Below are positions 30,535-39,077 of a stretch of DNA of 64,000 nucleotides, one piece after another. Each line of letters opens with the position of its first letter. The first letter of the stretch is position 1. The notes beneath the pieces are model-generated. The model saw nothing but the letters and a program-made list of their open reading frames with translations, did not search any database and was not told the DNA's origin. The DNA lies in contig CAIMDB010000007.1 of NCBI GenBank assembly GCA_903839675.1, forward strand, positions 62,001-126,000, in the 5' to 3' direction. The translations under genes and the position numbers were made by a program. Source of the stretch: an uncultured Sphingomonadales bacterium (GTDB lineage: Bacteria; Pseudomonadota; Alphaproteobacteria; Sphingomonadales; Sphingomonadaceae).

Positions 30535-30801
30535 ATGAAATGGACATCCATTCTCGCCATTTACCTGCTGTTCTGGGTGCTGAGCGCTTTCCTTGTCATG
30601 CCATTCCATGTGCGCACCGCGCAGGAAGCCGGGGGCGAGCTCGTGCCCGGACAGGCGGAAAGCGCGCCGCACGACTTTAAGCCGCTGCGCATCACATTAT
30701 GGACAACGTTGGTCGCAACCGTCCTGTTCGGTCTCTATTATGCCAATTACGTCAACGAATGGCTGACGCCCGCTATGCTGGACTTTAGCAGCCAATCCTA
30801 A
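30535..30801 (+). CDS. DUF1467 family membrane protein
   Basis: A protein of 88 residues with two membrane helices (about residues 4-24 and 52-74). The motif VMPFHVRTAQEAGGELVPGQ AESAP, broken here for length, is typical of DUF1467. This small family of unknown function is found in alphaproteobacteria, often next to RNase J or proS. Its TAA stop shares bases with the TAG stop of the convergent gene at 30798 (CTAA). Confidence 0.82.
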   Translation: MKWTSILAIYLLFWVLSAFLVMPFHVRTAQEAGGELVPGQAESAPHDFKPLRITLWTTLVATVLFGLYYANYVNEWLTPAMLDFSSQS

Positions 30802-33095
30802 CGGCGTAGCCGCTCAATTGCCTGGGCCAGCGCGACATAGAGTTTGCCCGCATCCGACGAAAGCAGCGTGACGCTGAGCGGCATGCCATCGCGGGTGGCG
30901 AGGACATTGCGCAACATCGCTTCAAAGTCATGGATGTAGCGGTTTACATGATCCCGGAAATCGCTGTCTTCTTCATAGTGGACAAGGATTTCGCGGGCTT
31001 CGCCTGTATCCAGCAAGCGCACGGCGCGACGGGTGAACACGCCACGGTCACCGCGCAGGTATGACGCCCACGCGGTGTCGGTCACATCGTTTGAGAGAAT
31101 CTTGGTGACATCAATCGCCGTTGAATTGAGCGATTCAAGGATCAGCGCCATGCGTCGGGCAAACATCGCGCTGTCACCCCGGACAATGTCATCCTTGGCA
31201 TCGTCAACGCGGGCCTCAAGGTTGGCGCTGGTTTCGCTGATGGTCAGCATCTGGCGCATCAAGCGATCGGTGGCTTTTTGCGCGGCGGCAACGGCGTCTT
31301 CCGCCTTGCGGGCGATGTCGGCCATCTGTTCTTCAACCTGCGCCGTCAGCGCGGCTGTCATGGCCTCACGCGCCTGAACACCAAGCGAGTTCGCCGCTTC
31401 GGGCACGACGTTCGCCAATGCATGGCGGGCATGTTCGGTCGCCTGATTGGCCGCATCCTTGATGCGCATCAGGGCGTCGATCAGCTGCGGTGCTGTCGCG
31501 CCGGTCAGGGTCAGCGCCTGTGCTTCGGCAGATTCAATTTCGCGGTTCAGCGCCTCTGCCGTCGCGCGGCTGTCATTCAGGGCGGCGCCTGCCGTTTCCA
31601 CAAAATGACGGACTTCCTCACGCTGTTGGGCAACAAGCGCTTCGGCTTCCTGCAACCTTGCAAGGGCCGCGGTAGAGGCGGTTTCAATCGCTTCTACTTC
31701 GGGCATGACAGCGCGGGCAGCCGCTTTGCTGGCCTCTGCCGTATCCTGAAGCCGCTGATAGGCGAGCGGCAGAGTTTCATCGATTTCACGTGCGGAGGCA
31801 TCAAGTGCAACAAGCAGGGCTTCTGCTTGACGGATGAGCCCGGCGGCAGAAGCGCCACCTGCGTCCAATGTCTGGCCCAGTTGATCGGCATGATCGCGCA
31901 GTCCGAGAATGGCAGCACTCGCCCGCTCGGCATTGGCCACCGTGTCATCGCCAAGATCACCGAAGCGCCCTTCGATCGCCGAAATGTCGGCGTTGATGCG
32001 GTCCACAAGCGCTTGGCTGGACGCTTCCTGACTTTCAAAGACGCGCGCAATTTCATCCACGCGCGATCCAATGGCGGCCACGCGCGTTGCGACAGCTTCG
32101 GTCGATTGCGCGCCCGCAGCGGCGATCGCTGCATGGCCTTGTTCGATCACAGCCATCATCGCCTCGCCTTGCGCTTGTAGACCCTTCTGGGCGGCAGCGA
32201 GGGCTTCTGCCGCACGTTCGAGAGAGACGTCCAGCGTTTGCGTCATGTTTGCCGAGGCTTTGTCCATATGATCGGCGGCGACCACACTGACATCGTGCAG
32301 ATGAGCGACGCGCTCTGCGAGCTTCTGGGCGGCACCAGTGGCGATGTCATCGGCTTCGCGCCCGCGGGCGGTGAGCAGGGTAAGCTGCGATTCCAACGCA
32401 TTGGTCTTCTCAAGCGCCGTCTGCCCTGCGGATTCGAGGGCCTCTGTCATGCGGCGGGCTTCCACCTGCGCACGGGGAAGGTCGGACAGCAGAATGGCCA
32501 TGTCGGCGCGCGCGCCGGAGGCGCTGTTCTTCAACGTGGCCGAATGGCGCGTAATCGTGTCGAGTTCACCGCGCATGGCGGCGGTGGCATCCGACAGACG
32601 CGTCGCTGTATCTTCGCCCAATGAAACGAGAATGCCGCCCTGTTCAGCAAGGGCAACGCGATTTGCATCAATGCGGCGGGCCATATCGGCAAGCGATGTC
32701 GCGAGGCGGGCCTCTTCATCCCGCAGACGCTCGATCGTTGCGGCAAAGCGCCGCGCTTCGGACCTGCTCGAGCGCAACGCGAGGATGACGGCGACACCCA
32801 ACAATGCCAGCGGGGCGCTGAGTGAAGCGATGAAGCTCGTGATCGCCAAAAGGGTGGGCGCAAGGCCTCCCAGATTATCGATGAAGGCGAAGCTGGCGGC
32901 GCCAATCCAGCCGATAGCGGCCAGAATGACGAGACCGAGCACGACGCGCGGCCAAATAGAGGTCTCGCTTTCCTCTTCTTCCACGTCCGCTTCGTAAATC
33001 GGGGCGTCAAGCGGAGCGGCTTCGGCGCCCTTTTTGGGCTTGCCGTCCACATTATGCTCCGGCCTGATACCGACGATTTTTGATTCCCCGGTCAT
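30798..33095 (-). CDS. Membrane-anchored coiled-coil protein, possibly TipN-like
   Basis: A protein of about 765 residues from ATG 33095 (two ATGs further upstream are possible). A charged N-terminus of about 47 residues with acidic DVEEEESE is followed by two membrane helices (WPRVVLGLVILAAIGWIGAA and the APTLLAITSFIASL region). About 550 residues of Ala/Glu/Arg-rich coiled coil come next, and a conserved-looking C-terminal domain (SYLRGDRGVFTRRAVRLLD, VNRYIHDFEAML, PLSVTLLSSDAGKLYVALAQ). The two N-terminal helices and long coiled coil match the plan of TipN, the pole-marking protein of Caulobacter. That assignment rests on architecture and memory of the C-terminal domain and is tentative. 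Confidence 0.55.
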   Translation of the reverse strand: MTGESKIVGIRPEHNVDGKPKKGAEAAPLDAPIYEADVEEEESETSIWPRVVLGLVILAAIGWIGAASFAFIDNLGGLAPTLLAITSFIASLSAPLALLGVAVILALRSSRSEARRFAATIERLRDEEARLATSLADMARRIDANRVALAEQGGILVSLGEDTATRLSDATAAMRGELDTITRHSATLKNSASGARADMAILLSDLPRAQVEARRMTEALESAGQTALEKTNALESQLTLLTARGREADDIATGAAQKLAERVAHLHDVSVVAADHMDKASANMTQTLDVSLERAAEALAAAQKGLQAQGEAMMAVIEQGHAAIAAAGAQSTEAVATRVAAIGSRVDEIARVFESQEASSQALVDRINADISAIEGRFGDLGDDTVANAERASAAILGLRDHADQLGQTLDAGGASAAGLIRQAEALLVALDASAREIDETLPLAYQRLQDTAEASKAAARAVMPEVEAIETASTAALARLQEAEALVAQQREEVRHFVETAGAALNDSRATAEALNREIESAEAQALTLTGATAPQLIDALMRIKDAANQATEHARHALANVVPEAANSLGVQAREAMTAALTAQVEEQMADIARKAEDAVAAAQKATDRLMRQMLTISETSANLEARVDDAKDDIVRGDSAMFARRMALILESLNSTAIDVTKILSNDVTDTAWASYLRGDRGVFTRRAVRLLDTGEAREILVHYEEDSDFRDHVNRYIHDFEAMLRNVLATRDGMPLSVTLLSSDAGKLYVALAQAIERLRR

Positions 33096-33232
33096 ATGGC
33101 AACCCCAATTCATTTTTCTGGGACCACCCAAGGAGTGGACCCGCGCCCTTCAGGCAACTGTAATCAAACATTTTGCGGTTGCATACACGCATCCGCAACA
33201 TCTCGTTAACTGGGATGGGGGTAAAAGTGCGC

Positions 33233-33532
33233 ATGGCATATGAACCCGGCGCAATCGAGGCAGCCTTGGCGGCTGTTGTAGGCGATGACCCTGAACTCGC
33301 AGAAGAATTGCGCCGCTCCCTGATCGAGAGTGCGGAACGCTATGCCGATCTGCTCACCCGCGCGCGCTGCGACGCCAATTGGTATGCCGCCGCCTGGCGC
33401 CTGAAGGGCGTGGCGGCCAGCTTTGGCGCGACGATTCTCCTCAAGGCAGCCGACGATGCCATTGATGCGGCGCCCGGCGATCCTGTCGCCCTACGCAAGG
33501 TGAGTCGGGCGATCAGCACCTTAAAGGGCTAA
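33233..33532 (+). CDS. HPt-like protein lacking the phospho-accepting histidine
   Basis: A protein of 99 residues, all-helical, with the HPt signature block YAAAWRLKGVAASFGA. In active HPt domains the block is A-H-x-L-K-G; here the histidine position is Trp55. The rest (EELRRSLIESAERYADLL before it, LLKAADDAIDA after it) fits the four-helix bundle. It therefore probably cannot take part in phosphorelay by the usual residue. The ATG at 33233 is chosen; GTG 33227, closer to the GGGGG site, is possible. It lies between the TipN-like gene and a histidine-kinase-like gene. Confidence 0.7.
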   Translation: MAYEPGAIEAALAAVVGDDPELAEELRRSLIESAERYADLLTRARCDANWYAAAWRLKGVAASFGATILLKAADDAIDAAPGDPVALRKVSRAISTLKG

Positions 33533-33600
33533 ACCTCCAACAGTTTGCAAATCGCTGCAAAAGCCCTATCCGCCGATGCATGCAATCGGGGAATTCCAGC

Positions 33601-34794
33601 GTGCCGCTTGCGGCGCTTATCCTTGCCCAAGGGGACACTGACGGCGCACCGGCCAACCAGCCGTTGCTGCTGACGCTCGGTGGCCAGACCCTGCTGGAGC
33701 GGCTTGCTTATCAAGCCACACGGATGGGTGCCGGACACATCATCCTCTGCGCGGGTGCCTTGCCCGGCGGAATGGTGGCAGCGCTGGACCGGTTGAAGGC
33801 CCGTGGTCTCGACATTGCCCTTGCCCGGTCCCCGCGGGAGGCGGCAGACAAGCTGCATCCGGACGAGAATGTGCTTGTTTATGCCAATGTCGTTTTTGTG
33901 CAGGATGATGCTTTGGCGCGCATGGTCGGCTCTGGCGTTCCGGAGATGTTGACCCTGCCTGAGCCTTGGGGTCGGGACCGGTTTGAACGCATTGATGCGA
34001 CCGACAATTGGGCGGGTGTCGCGACGCTGCCGGCCAGCCTGATCCGCGAGACCGTGGCCATGCTTGGCGAATGGGCCTTTGCCCCGACGTTGATCCGACG
34101 CGCTGTCCAGCAAGGCGTCACGCGGACACCGCTGGCACTGCGCAATGAGGCAGAGACCGACGAGATCGCGCCGATTGTGCAGGATGATCTTTCCGGCACC
34201 GCCCGCGCCATCGCCCGCCATGCAGATGTGGTGGCCGATGGAGCCTTGGAACGACTGGCGTTCATGCCCGTCCTGCGTCGCTTTGCAGCCTGGGTGTCGC
34301 TCAAGCCGGTGTCGTCCACCATGATGGCAGCACTGGCCCTGCTGCTTTTGGCCGCGACCGTTGGTTTGGCGGTGGTCAATCAACCTATCCCGGCCTTTGC
34401 CCTGTTGATTGGGGCTTCTGCGACCACATTGCTGACCAAGTTGCTGGGGCAGACGGGCGTTCCCGAACCTAAGGCCATGGCCCGCCTGCTGGACTGGCGC
34501 TGCCTCGTCCTCCCCGCCGTCCTCATGTCGGCGGCTGCTTATGGCTTTGCCGGCTGGAAAGGGCAGTGGGCGACGGCCATTTTCGCGCTTTGGCTGGCAG
34601 TGCAGATGCTCATAACCATCCACGCCGCGCGTCGCGGGGCCATCCTGCCAAATTGGCGCGCCGGGGCTACAGGGGAAGCGATGGTTTTGCTCGCGGCTTA
34701 TGCGGCTGGTTGGCCGATGATTGGCCTCGTTCTGGTCCTTCTCCACGCTGTGACCAATCAAGTGTGGGTCCAGCAGAAAAGCCTGAAGGCTTAG
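33601..34794 (+). CDS. Degenerate nucleotidyltransferase / membrane protein
   Basis: A protein of about 397 residues from GTG 33601 (GGGGA 8 bases upstream; an ATG seven codons earlier is possible). Residues 1-210 look like a GT-A nucleotidyltransferase fold (PLAALILAQG, then LLLTLGGQTLLERLAYQATR, and DENVLVYANVVFV). The usual GxGxR nucleotide loop is replaced by LAQGDTDGAPANQP. The C-terminal half has about five membrane helices and starts AAWVSLKPVSSTMMAALAL, like the start of CDP-alcohol phosphatidyltransferase domains, but I find no DGxxAR...GxxxDxxxD motif. It resembles a bifunctional inositol-phosphate cytidylyltransferase/transferase that has lost both active sites. The function is unknown. 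Confidence 0.6.
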   Translation: MPLAALILAQGDTDGAPANQPLLLTLGGQTLLERLAYQATRMGAGHIILCAGALPGGMVAALDRLKARGLDIALARSPREAADKLHPDENVLVYANVVFVQDDALARMVGSGVPEMLTLPEPWGRDRFERIDATDNWAGVATLPASLIRETVAMLGEWAFAPTLIRRAVQQGVTRTPLALRNEAETDEIAPIVQDDLSGTARAIARHADVVADGALERLAFMPVLRRFAAWVSLKPVSSTMMAALALLLLAATVGLAVVNQPIPAFALLIGASATTLLTKLLGQTGVPEPKAMARLLDWRCLVLPAVLMSAAAYGFAGWKGQWATAIFALWLAVQMLITIHAARRGAILPNWRAGATGEAMVLLAAYAAGWPMIGLVLVLLHAVTNQVWVQQKSLKA

Positions 34795-34897
34795 GCGGGC
34801 TTTAACCATGCGGCCCTAAACAGGGCAGCATGACCGCAGCGCGCCTTCATGACCATGATGCTGGCCCATGCCATTTGGCTGGGAAAGGCGCGCGCGC

Positions 34898-36268
34898 ATG
34901 AAGGCGCAGGGACGCATTGACCGGCTGGGTTGCCTCATTTCCGCTGATCCGCCGCTGGCGAAGCTTCAGGCAGGGGCCGGCGGTTTGCCGGGCGGGAAAG
35001 TCGCCATTCCGCAGATCGCCTCAATTGCGCGGCTCGCTCGCTCTTTATCGGCGCCTGTCTCGCGGCCCGTTATTGTCGCAGATGGACCACATTCTATTGA
35101 ATTGATGGTCGATGCTCATCCGGATGCAGATGGTGTCGGGCTTGCCATTTCGGGGTGGGACAGCATAGCTCCTGTCCCTGTGGGTGGATCTTTGGCTGAC
35201 CGTGAACATGATTTTGCGCGCCTTGAAGCCGATGGCGCCTGGGAAGCTGACTCCAATCTCCGCCTCATCCGGGTGAGCGATGCCGTCGACGGGGACCTCG
35301 GCATTACGCCAACGGCTGTGCATGGCGTGCCACTGACAAAAATATTCCGCCTGCTTCCTGATGATCAGGGGGATCTGCCGATTCTATCGGCCTTGGCCAA
35401 CCGCATCCCCTTTACCGATCAGGCCGCAGAACTGATTGAAAGTGACGCTTTGCCCGTCCGCCTTTCGGGCGAGCCGGTGTTTGACGATAGCGGCCGCTTT
35501 GCGGGCCTGCGGGGTCGCATCTCGCTGCCCTTGGACAAACGATCTGCGCCAGAACCTGATATTGGCGGCGCTTATCCTGCAGATGACAATTTTGCCCGGC
35601 GGCTGGACGCAGCCCTTCGCGGGCCCATCGGGCGGATCATTCACAATGCCGATGCAGCTGCCGCACAAGTCGATGGACCTGTGCGGCGCGGCTATGCCGG
35701 TTATGCGAATGATATCGCGTCTGCCGCGCGCCATTTGCTTGGGCTGGTGGATGACCTGTCTAACCTGCAGGCGGTGGAGCGGGCAGATTTCACCATTGAA
35801 ACGGATATCGTCGATCTGGCAGATATTGCGCGCAGAGCGGCAGGCCTGCTCGGAGTGCGCGCGGGCGACCGCAAGGTGCGGATTGATCGGCCCGCAGAAG
35901 GGGAGCAATTGCCGGCCATCGGTGATTTCGGGCGTGTTCTCCAGATCCTGGTGAACCTGATCGGCAATGCCGTGCGCTATTCCCCGGAAGAAAGCGCCGT
36001 CTGGGTCCGGTCAGAAATTGAAGGCGACACTGCGGTCATCATCGTGGCGGACCAAGGCAAGGGCATCGCCCTCGACGATCAACAGCGCATTTTTGAAAAG
36101 TTTGAGCGGGTTGACCCGAGTGAGCCGGGCGGCAGCGGGCTTGGTCTCTACATCTCGCGCCGGCTGGCCCGGGCAATGGGAGGGGACATCACGGTCGACA
36201 GTGCGCCGGGGCAGGGCGCACGCTTCATCCTGACCTTGCGCCGTGCGCCAGAGGGTGCCCGCACCTAG
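34898..36268 (+). CDS. Histidine-kinase-like protein without the phospho-acceptor His
   Basis: A protein of about 456 residues from ATG 34898 (GAAAGG 9 bases upstream; ATG 34868 is an alternative). The order is an N-terminal region, a PAS-like segment (about residues 100-215), a DHp-like helix and a HATPase_c domain. The ATPase part is intact: LVNLIGNAVRYSP (N box), VADQGKGIALDD (G1), FEKFERVDP (F box) and GGSGLGLYISRRLARAMGG (G2). In the DHp helix FARRLDAALRGPIGRII the acceptor position of SHELRTPL is Ala238. No membrane helix is seen, so it is cytoplasmic. It may act as a pseudokinase, partner or phosphatase; that is inference. Confidence 0.78.
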   Translation: MKAQGRIDRLGCLISADPPLAKLQAGAGGLPGGKVAIPQIASIARLARSLSAPVSRPVIVADGPHSIELMVDAHPDADGVGLAISGWDSIAPVPVGGSLADREHDFARLEADGAWEADSNLRLIRVSDAVDGDLGITPTAVHGVPLTKIFRLLPDDQGDLPILSALANRIPFTDQAAELIESDALPVRLSGEPVFDDSGRFAGLRGRISLPLDKRSAPEPDIGGAYPADDNFARRLDAALRGPIGRIIHNADAAAAQVDGPVRRGYAGYANDIASAARHLLGLVDDLSNLQAVERADFTIETDIVDLADIARRAAGLLGVRAGDRKVRIDRPAEGEQLPAIGDFGRVLQILVNLIGNAVRYSPEESAVWVRSEIEGDTAVIIVADQGKGIALDDQQRIFEKFERVDPSEPGGSGLGLYISRRLARAMGGDITVDSAPGQGARFILTLRRAPEGART

Positions 36269-36331: not shown

Positions 36332-37618
36332 TTAGCGCTTATCGACCGGCACGTAGTCGCGCTGGACCGGGCCTGTGTAGAGCTGGCGCGGACGGCCGAT
36401 CTTCTGTTCGGGGTCCGAGATCATTTCATTCCACTGCGCCACCCAGCCGACGGTGCGGGCAAGGGCGAAGAGAACAGTGAACATTTCGGTCGGGAAGCCA
36501 ATCGCCGAGAGGATGACGCCCGAATAGAAGTCCACGTTCGGGAACAGCTTCTTCTCAATGAAATAAGGATCGCTGAGCGCCATTTCTTCAAGCTGGATCG
36601 CGACGTCGAACACCGGATCGTTGATCTTCAGCGCTTCGAACACCTCACGCAGCGTCTGCTGCATCACGGTCGCGCGCGGATCGTAGTTTTTGTAGACGCG
36701 GTGGCCGAAGCCCATCAGGCGGAACGGATCATTCTTGTCCTTGGCGCGGGCGATAAACTCAGGGATCCGCTCCGGACGGCCAATTTCGCGCAGCATGTTG
36801 AGCGCGGCTTCATTGGCGCCGCCATGCGCCGGGCCCCAAAGGCAGGCAATGCCGGCCGCGATGCACGCAAACGGGTTGGCGCCGGACGAACCGGCCAGAC
36901 GCACGGTGGATGTCGACGCGTTCTGTTCATGGTCGGCATGGAGGATGAAGATACGGTCCATCGCGCGCTCAATGGCGGGATCGACATAATATTCTTCCGC
37001 CGGAACACCGAAGGTCATGCGCAGGAAGTTGGCCGTGTAGGACAGGTCGTTGCGCGGATAGAGGAAGGGCTGACCGATCGAATACTTATAGGCCATCGCC
37101 GCAATTGTCGGCATCTTCGCAATCAGGCGGTGCGAGGCCACCATGCGCTGGTGCGGATCGGCGATGTCGGTCGAGTCGTGATAGAAAGCGGACAGCGCGC
37201 CGACGACACCGCACATGATCGCCATGGGGTGCGCGTCACGACGGAAGCCGCGATAGAAGGTCGCGAGCTGTTCATGCAGCATGGTGTGGCGCGTAATGGT
37301 GCGCGAGAAGGTGGCCAGTTCCGCCTTGGACGGCAGTTCGCCGTTCAGAAGGAGATAGGATACTTCCATGAAGCTGGACTGTTCGGCCAACTGCCCGATG
37401 GGATAGCCGCGGTGCAGCAACACACCTTCGTCGCCATCAATATAAGTCAGGCCAGATTCGCAGGCTGCCGTCGACATAAAGCCGGGGTCAAAGGTGAAGG
37501 CGCCGGTGCTGGCATAAAGCTTGCGGATATCGATGACATCCGGACCGATCGATCCTGACCGGACAGCATAGCTGGTATCTGCGCCACCTAAGGTGAGCTT
37601 GGCTGTAGTATCAGACAT
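36332..37618 (-). CDS. gltA: Citrate synthase
   Basis: A protein of 428 residues of the type II (hexameric, Gram-negative) kind. It condenses acetyl-CoA and oxaloacetate. Seen are the N-terminal extension ([20 protein letters not shown]), the [19 protein letters not shown] block with the active-site His, [13 protein letters not shown], and the C-terminal [14 protein letters not shown] with the catalytic Asp nearby (NVDFYSGV). The ATG at 37618 is set by homologous N-termini; the open frame upstream overlaps gltX. It lies 25 bases behind gltX and ends in a terminator. Confidence 0.96.
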
Positions 37619-37643
37619 GGTCTTTTGCCCCTTCTTGTTCTTC

Positions 37644-39077
37644 TCAGGCGCCACGCGCCAGGCTGTCTTCAATCCGCGCCAGCGACTCCTCACGACCAAG
37701 GAGCACCAGCACATCAAATATCCCGGGGGATGTTCCCCGACCGGTCAGCGCCGCGCGGAGCGGCTGTGCAATCTTGCCGAGACCGAGCCCGGCCTCTTCA
37801 GCAACAGCCTTCACACCCTCTTCCAGCGGCGCCATGTCCCAAACGGGTTGGCTCTTCAATGCTTCGAGCGCCTTGCCCAGCAAAGACAGCGCGTCTCCAT
37901 CTAGCAAAGAAGCCGCTTTCTCGTCCATCGAAATTGGGCGCATTTCGAATAGGAATTGCGCCCCTTCGGCAACCTCGATCATCGTTTTGGCACGAACCTT
38001 GATGACGGGCATCGCCTTTGCAAGCAGCATCATGTCTGCTTCGGTGAGCGACCGGCCAAGGGCGGTTTCCAGCCGGTGCTGGCAGAGGTGTGCCAGGCGG
38101 GCGTCGTCGGCTTCGCGGATGTAATGGCCGTTCAGATTTTCGAGCTTTTTGAAATCGAACCGGGCCGCACCGCGACCCACATCGGAGACGTCAAACCATT
38201 CAAGGGCCTGATCGCGGCTGATGATTTCATCATCGCCGTGACCCCAGCCGAGCTTCATCAGGTAATTGTTGATGGCTTCGGGCAGATACCCCATCTCGTC
38301 GCGATAGGCATCAACGCCGAGCGCGCCGTGGCGCTTGGACAGCTTCGCCCCATCTGCGCCGTGGATCAGCGGGACGTGCGCATAGATAGGCTCCGGCCAG
38401 CCCATGCCGCGAATGAGGGCAATCTGGCGGAAGGCGTTGTTCAGATGGTCATCGCCGCGGATCACATGGGTGATGCCCATGTCATGATCGTCCACAACGA
38501 CGCTGAGCATATAGGTGGGCGTGCCGTCTGACCGCAGCAGGATCATATCGTCCAATTCGGCATTGGCGACGGTCACATCACCCTGCACGAGATCGCTGAT
38601 CGTAACGCTGCCTTCAGCCGGAGCCTTCAGGCGGACGACAAAGGGCTTGTCGGTGGGCAGATCAGCCGCGGCTGCGTCGCGCCAGGGGCTGCGAATGCGG
38701 AAAGGACGCTTTTCGGCCTCTGCTGCTGCGCGCATGGCGGCGAGCTCGTCCTGCGTCAGGAAGCAGCGATACGCATGGCCGCGCGCGACCAGCTCATGTG
38801 CAACCTCGGCATGCCGTGCCGCGCGGGAGAATTGATAGACTTCTTCGCCATCCCAATCGAGATCAAGCCAACGCAGCCCGTCCAGAATCGCGTCAATGGC
38901 GCTGTCGGTGGAGCGGGCACGGTCGGTATCTTCGATGCGCAGCAGGAACTTACCGCCCATGCGCCGGGCATAGAGCCAGTTGTAAAGCGCCGTGCGCGCG
39001 CCGCCAATGTGCAGATACCCCGTTGGAGACGGGGCAAAGCGCGTAACGACGGTCGCATTTTCTTGACTTGCGCCCAC
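37644..39077 (-). CDS. gltX: Glutamyl-tRNA synthetase
   Basis: A protein of about 477 residues. The class I HIGH motif is [22 protein letters not shown], seen at residues about 12-33 and quoted here in one piece only for its HIGH core (YLHIGGART). The KMSKS equivalent is KLSKRHG, followed by [13 protein letters not shown] at 39077 with GGAG 9 bases upstream fits better than the TTG at 39095. It is divergent from comEC, with only about 24 bases between their starts, so their promoters must overlap the coding ends. Confidence 0.94.

Follow-up and report, generated by a model that had tools for sequence, protein, structure and literature searches.

The gene at 34898-36268 (+) of the window, by which is meant the whole 64,000-nucleotide stretch of DNA analysed from an uncultured bacterium of the family Sphingomonadaceae, encodes a histidine-kinase-like protein of 456 amino acids in which the acceptor histidine is missing and the ATP-binding domain is complete. 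We lean, with some reserve, towards regarding this protein as a pseudo-histidine-kinase within a pseudo-phosphorelay module, that is, as a component that signals by binding without phosphorylating itself. The best reading of the sequences compared is that an active phosphorelay module would have become an ATP-binding module without phosphotransfer on the stem of the Sphingomonadaceae. The initial annotation had proposed a module working without histidine phosphorylation; this is sustained by the lack of the histidine in both the kinase-like protein and its HPt-like neighbour family-wide, by a His-bearing ancestry and by the kept ATP site, but the residue found in place of the histidine, Ala238, is not conserved. 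Single kinases without the histidine are already known, e.g. DivL; here a kinase and a nearby HPt protein both lack it throughout one family, while their orthologues in sister families, and those at the same locus of one genome, still bear it, so that a before-and-after comparison is available. This comparison bears on the role of a histidine kinase fold that binds ATP and is unable to phosphorylate itself, and it raises the question of whether the label ‘sensor histidine kinase’ given by annotation pipelines misleads models of sphingomonad signalling.

Residues of the kinase-like protein are counted from 34898, an alternative ATG being present at 34868, 10 codons upstream. A PAS-like region occupies residues 112-203 (35231-35506, +; Pfam PAS_9, 6e-4, under the gathering score). 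The former H box, identified by sequence and alignments (35603-35626, +), reads LDAALRGP where His-bearing kinases carry MSHELRTP, with Ala238 (codon 35609-35611) at the site of the histidine, and the HATPase_c domain (residues 343-449; 35924-36244, +) matches Pfam at 2.7e-27, none of its N, G1, F and G2 boxes being damaged. The complete ATPase boxes and the alanine at the H position described in the initial annotation were thus both confirmed, the former by this match and by the invariance of nine of the ten ATP-box residues checked, the latter by alignment. HisKA was not listed by the Pfam search for the window protein itself and is matched at E<=0.1 by 38 of 41 aligned family members; ChpT-type HPTransfase is matched by 10 of the 41 (best 1.1e-4), which we take as the shared ATPase-like fold. 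An NCBIfam search of the protein returned generic kinase equivalogs only, far below their cut-offs.

The alignment comprised the window protein and 75 further unique homologues from 88 loci; one row (L126) is broken at the acceptor site, and six (L051-L056) are near-copies from one genus-level group. In the 75 rows, window included, that could be read at the acceptor column, Pro (29) and Arg (17) are followed by Gly (7), Ala (6), Lys (5), Glu (3), Thr, Ser and Gln (2 each), Asn (1) and His (1). Because this column is mixed and histidine occurs in one row of the 75, the conserved feature is the absence of histidine, and Ala238, whose conservation the initial annotation had proposed to check, was rejected as such. 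The following column, Glu in active kinases, holds Ala (50), Val (18), Ser (6) or Gly (1), so that no row with a residue at this position shows Glu; the H-box Thr column is variable, and L240, R241 and P243 are kept. Four positions of SHELRTPLN, namely H, E, T and N, are conserved among the 20 His-bearing relatives compared and vary freely among 27 derived rows; another 38 positions, which mostly belong to the ATP site or the DHp core, are conserved in the two sets alike. The sole derived row with an acceptor histidine (L146, genome G241) reads IDHSFKPP, Ser replacing the adjacent Glu.

The ATP site could have been kept in order to act on a different residue or on another protein. The protein might still be a kinase with a different acceptor, either a conserved residue of its own or a Ser/Thr of a partner, as in SpoIIAB/RsbW and the mitochondrial BCKD kinases. 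The checked Mg/ATP-contact residues are invariant or nearly so, N353, N357, D385, G387, G389, F399, G412, G414 and G416 being identical in 75/75 rows and F402, the tenth position checked, in 74, a degree of conservation that seems excessive for a mere scaffold. A nearby conserved histidine, the phosphorylation of which would by the initial annotation count against its reading, does exist, since His279 is present in 74/75 rows; it is, however, equally conserved among the H-box-bearing relatives, is therefore older than the loss of the acceptor, and was ruled out as a recruited substitute. As no new Ser, Thr, Asp or Tyr has been fixed at the former H-box positions either, a kinase with another acceptor is considered unlikely, and signalling by binding remains the preferred reading.

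At E<=1e-40, a match to the window protein is present in 196 of 296 genomes from the order, and within its genus in 10 of 13. In the searches of the 296 genomes, the best five kinase candidates and the best 16 HPt candidates per genome were scored, so that some genes may have been missed. With a profile of the family at 1e-50, 268 of the 296 genomes match, 72 of 83 outside the Sphingomonadaceae and 196 of 213 inside, of which G053 and G262 carry His-bearing forms. This breadth counts against the idea of a decaying gene, retained by chance once the relay had lost its receiver, for which the 17 family genomes without the gene could be cited, together with the interrupted ORF of L126 in genome G083 (one TGA, 66-aa ORF). 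The nine ATP-box positions identical in every row speak against decay, as do the dN/dS ratios, which are 0.10-0.13 among the window, L110 and L112 and 0.20-0.24 against L111, where dS is near saturation. For the same four loci, the ratio is 0.03-0.27 for the HPt-like gene and 0.13-0.58 for the gene of the membrane protein that follows it, all these values being rough because dS is >1 in every pair. Taken as sequence comparisons, they speak for function under purifying selection, least so for the membrane protein; decay is a very improbable explanation and was rejected on the ratios of about 0.1 in close pairs.

The ancestry of the gene is indicated by its relatives outside the family. The best match carries a full H box in all of the 18 sister-family genomes sampled from the 72 that match, and the same holds for all 27 non-family loci retrieved in a wider search of the class, in which 94 genomes matched, including three from the family. 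In 13/13 sister-family loci, the gene immediately upstream of the kinase is of the DUF2336 type, and such a gene was seen in 8 of the 27 class loci, which were retrieved with about 1.5 kb of flank; DUF2336 (PF10098) thus precedes PAS kinases in several families of the Alphaproteobacteria. A sequence search matched no solved structure to the DUF2336 family, and within the literature collection searched there was no mention of DUF2336 nor any description of a PAS kinase linked to it. In a tree of the kinase core with the H-box columns omitted, inferred by a quick method with no bootstrap and with some long branches, 28 derived Sphingomonadaceae rows form one clade (SH-aLRT 100), the His-bearing kinase of G262 is sister to it (98), and that of G053 falls among the sister families. 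Since the derived rows are a single clade, the loss of the acceptor histidine is more than chance. The genome G262, an early-branching member of the Sphingomonadaceae, has both histidines intact (SHELRTP in the kinase, AAHRLKG in the HPt), and the His-bearing form at the same locus is known from this one genome. In three sister-family or early-branching genomes, the DUF2336-kinase pair lies beside flgK (G053, L262:4849-7014; G004, L267:13990-16098; G058, L274:3882-6002; Pfam FlgK_D1), and a Flg_bbr_C protein is found near the locus in G021 (L269); the proximity of flgK is at most a hint that the ancestor was connected with motility.

The histidine-less HPt protein that the initial annotation placed in the kinase's block is real. 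The HPt-like gene (33233-33532, +; recognized by alignment and HMM) encodes 99 amino acids with Trp at the acceptor site (codon 33395-33397), and of 55 unique derived members 53 lack the histidine of the HxxKG motif, the two that have it being L111, where the kinase is His-less, and L186. The histidine is present in 19/19 ancestral-type HPts, which include those of three early Sphingomonadaceae (G262, G053 and G287) and a second hit in G052 (L301) that is probably paralogous; they score low against the profile (23-52 bits), and their orthology rests on neighbouring genes, namely a receiver (15/16 genomes) and a coiled-coil gene (three loci). Pfam Hpt is matched at E<=1 by 18 of 29 derived members (best 2.6e-5; the window protein is sub-threshold at 0.024) and is passed by His-bearing relatives (5.5e-10), and the profile of the HPt-like family in turn picks up HPts from sister families that are themselves Pfam-positive, e.g. 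L279 at 2.1e-11 among the retrieved sequences. The AF2 model of the protein (pLDDT 90.2) has a four-helix arrangement that may be that of HPt proteins, and the top Foldseek rows are HPt proteins with weak E-values (0.16 and up). Superposition on HptB of P. aeruginosa (7c1i) gives Z 11.8 over 97 residues, a match that is by itself not decisive because unrelated helical bundles reach Z 10-11. No solved structure matching the family by sequence at E<=0.001 was found.

In the sister families, the HPt and receiver genes lie within 1 kb of each other in 15 of the 16 genomes that have both, G011 being the exception. At E<=1e-60, the receiver gene has a match in 68 of the 83 genomes that are not Sphingomonadaceae, among which four further matches are weak, as against 1 of 213 inside the family (G053). 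Given that G262 keeps both histidines and has no match to the receiver, the loss of the receiver and the loss of the histidines were separate events. Receivers beside a His-bearing HPt are located at L279:6885-7433 (-) and L263:8194-8745 (-); they read VISNWDM at what we take to be the place where CheY-type receivers carry the acceptor Asp, and the receiver may thus itself be a pseudo-receiver in the sister families. In L279, the receiver is followed by another HPt-like gene, which encodes 165 aa and matches Pfam Hpt at 2e-4.

Between the HPt-like and kinase-like genes of the window lies the gene of a membrane protein of 404 amino acids (33580-34794, +), with a family member in 50/51 loci. Its N-terminus is nucleotidyltransferase-like and degenerate, and its C-terminal, membrane-embedded portion is related to the CDP-alcohol transferases. 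NTP_transf_3 matches 8 of 29 derived members, and CDP-OH_P_transf matches none of the 29 at E<=1, while the G262 orthologue passes the latter model (36 bits, cut-off 22); likewise, the DG(x)2AR...G motif of CDP-alcohol phosphotransferases is absent in the aligned derived members and present in G262. The top Foldseek row of its low-confidence model (pLDDT 62.7) is 4mnd (3.0e-7), in agreement with the profile search (4mnd, 2.8e-4).

The derived block was examined in 51 loci, of which 50 have the membrane protein, 42 the DUF2336 gene and 36 the HPt-like gene; in the seven loci from the window's genus, the block lacks DUF2336. The picture of two neighbouring genes given in the initial annotation was right as to the missing histidines of both and omitted the intervening membrane protein and the DUF2336 gene of most relatives. 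On the HPt side, the block is flanked by a gene for a coiled-coil, membrane-anchored protein (30798-33131, -; tblastn match in 44/51 loci), transcribed away from the HPt-like gene; in G262, G053 and G082, where the HPt is His-bearing, the two genes are likewise divergent. On the kinase side follows a conserved neighbour outside the module (36332-37717, -; tblastn match in 49/51 loci), which we presume, from the appearance of its protein, to be gltA. The order in G262 is coiled-coil gene, HPt, membrane protein, DUF2336, kinase and gltA-gltX-comEC, with additional genes separating the membrane protein from DUF2336. Co-occurrence of kinase and HPt genes in relatives, the absence of which would have told against the initial annotation, holds in general as a tendency at the level of genomes, an HPt-like match being present in 148 of the 196 family genomes with the kinase-like gene as against 2 of the 17 that lack it (Fisher p 2.5e-7, with no correction for relatedness). 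Linkage is not strict, since 15 of the 51 loci have no HPt-like match within 6-8 kb upstream and the two genes are distant in some genomes, e.g. G268 (HPt at C1:187441, kinase at C1:542493). The 48/196 genomes without an HPt-like match and the 17/213 without the kinase-like gene indicate either that the module can be dispensed with or that its parts can be uncoupled.

Comparison among these genomes shows that the ancestor had a PAS histidine kinase with a DUF2336 protein and, separately, an HPt beside a receiver, with their histidines present. On the stem of most Sphingomonadaceae, these gene sets were joined into one block and the receiver gene was lost. On the same stem, and in one order or another, the kinase and the HPt lost their acceptor histidines and the membrane protein its CDP-alcohol-transferase motif. 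What is left is a dimeric DHp plus an ATP-binding domain, whose conformation may be set by ATP binding or hydrolysis together with PAS input. The protein may then act, with no phosphorylation of itself, by using the retained DHp surface to bind a partner. By gene order, the HPt-like protein would be the first candidate partner, followed by the membrane protein and the DUF2336 protein. A more specific proposal, put forward tentatively and with less than even confidence, is that a complete phosphorelay module of kinase, HPt and membrane enzyme was converted on the family's stem, and that the kinase and the HPt lost their histidines in parallel and still interact, information being passed by ATP-dependent binding alone in an ATP-gated complex free of phosphotransfer.

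Among the closest known systems is DivL of Caulobacter and relatives, a pseudo-histidine kinase that, in the part of PMC4211667 drawn on here, reads DivK~P without kinase activity. A DivL-like role would make the window protein a reader of a phosphorylated response regulator, docking a receiver encoded elsewhere. The DHp docking helix is indeed kept as a helix with many positions conserved, and DivL (4q20) is among the PDB matches of the family profile (3.1e-28, aligned through the DHp). Against this, the best PDB match is 8u4x (1.4e-40), the docking helix is altered (‘NAIIGF’ of relatives being mostly ‘xRIIAN’) and the locus has no receiver gene, and we hold a receiver reader to be rather unlikely. 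That the protein might be the sphingomonad DivL was ruled out, because a separate Tyr-bearing DivL-type protein is encoded in the same genome (L164, G000 C21:11727-12062; SYELRTP; best PDB match 4q20, 1.4e-40), whereas the window protein is placed among the DUF2336-linked kinases by the tree, is not orthologous to DivL, and has no Tyr at the acceptor site in any of the 75 rows. DivL is not known to have a His-less HPt beside it.

Signalling by binding in a module that has lost its histidines, the reading we prefer, has no described counterpart among the matches listed in a literature search for this family or for His-less kinase/HPt pairs in sphingomonads. As to cell-cycle signalling in the order, Sphingomonadales are stated in the relevant part of PMC2877005 to keep CckA-ChpT-CtrA, with the DivJ-PleC-DivK system degenerate or missing. 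The DUF2336-linked PAS kinase of sister families is the orthologue of the kinase-like protein by tree, and by locus in G262, and has the same DHp-CA core, but differs in its full SHELRTP box. In the same way, HPt proteins such as HptB may resemble the HPt-like protein in fold and differ in the acceptor histidine, and the IPCT-DIPPS/CDP-alcohol phosphotransferase AF2299 (4mnd) is the best PDB match of the membrane protein by both profile and Foldseek and differs in the motif lost from the derived members. HmrB of Caulobacter, likewise a small helical protein without an HxxKG motif that adjoins a kinase and a membrane protein, is alike by description, and two of its histidines are reported as necessary for function in the portion of PMC11481889 consulted. 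DivL shares with the kinase-like family a PAS input, DHp and CA domains, a replaced acceptor histidine and, according to the excerpted account in PMC4211667, signalling without kinase activity; DivL, however, has Tyr at the acceptor site, and its nucleotide site is reported as constricted, with poor nucleotide access, whereas the family described here has no fixed residue at that site and keeps its ATP boxes intact.
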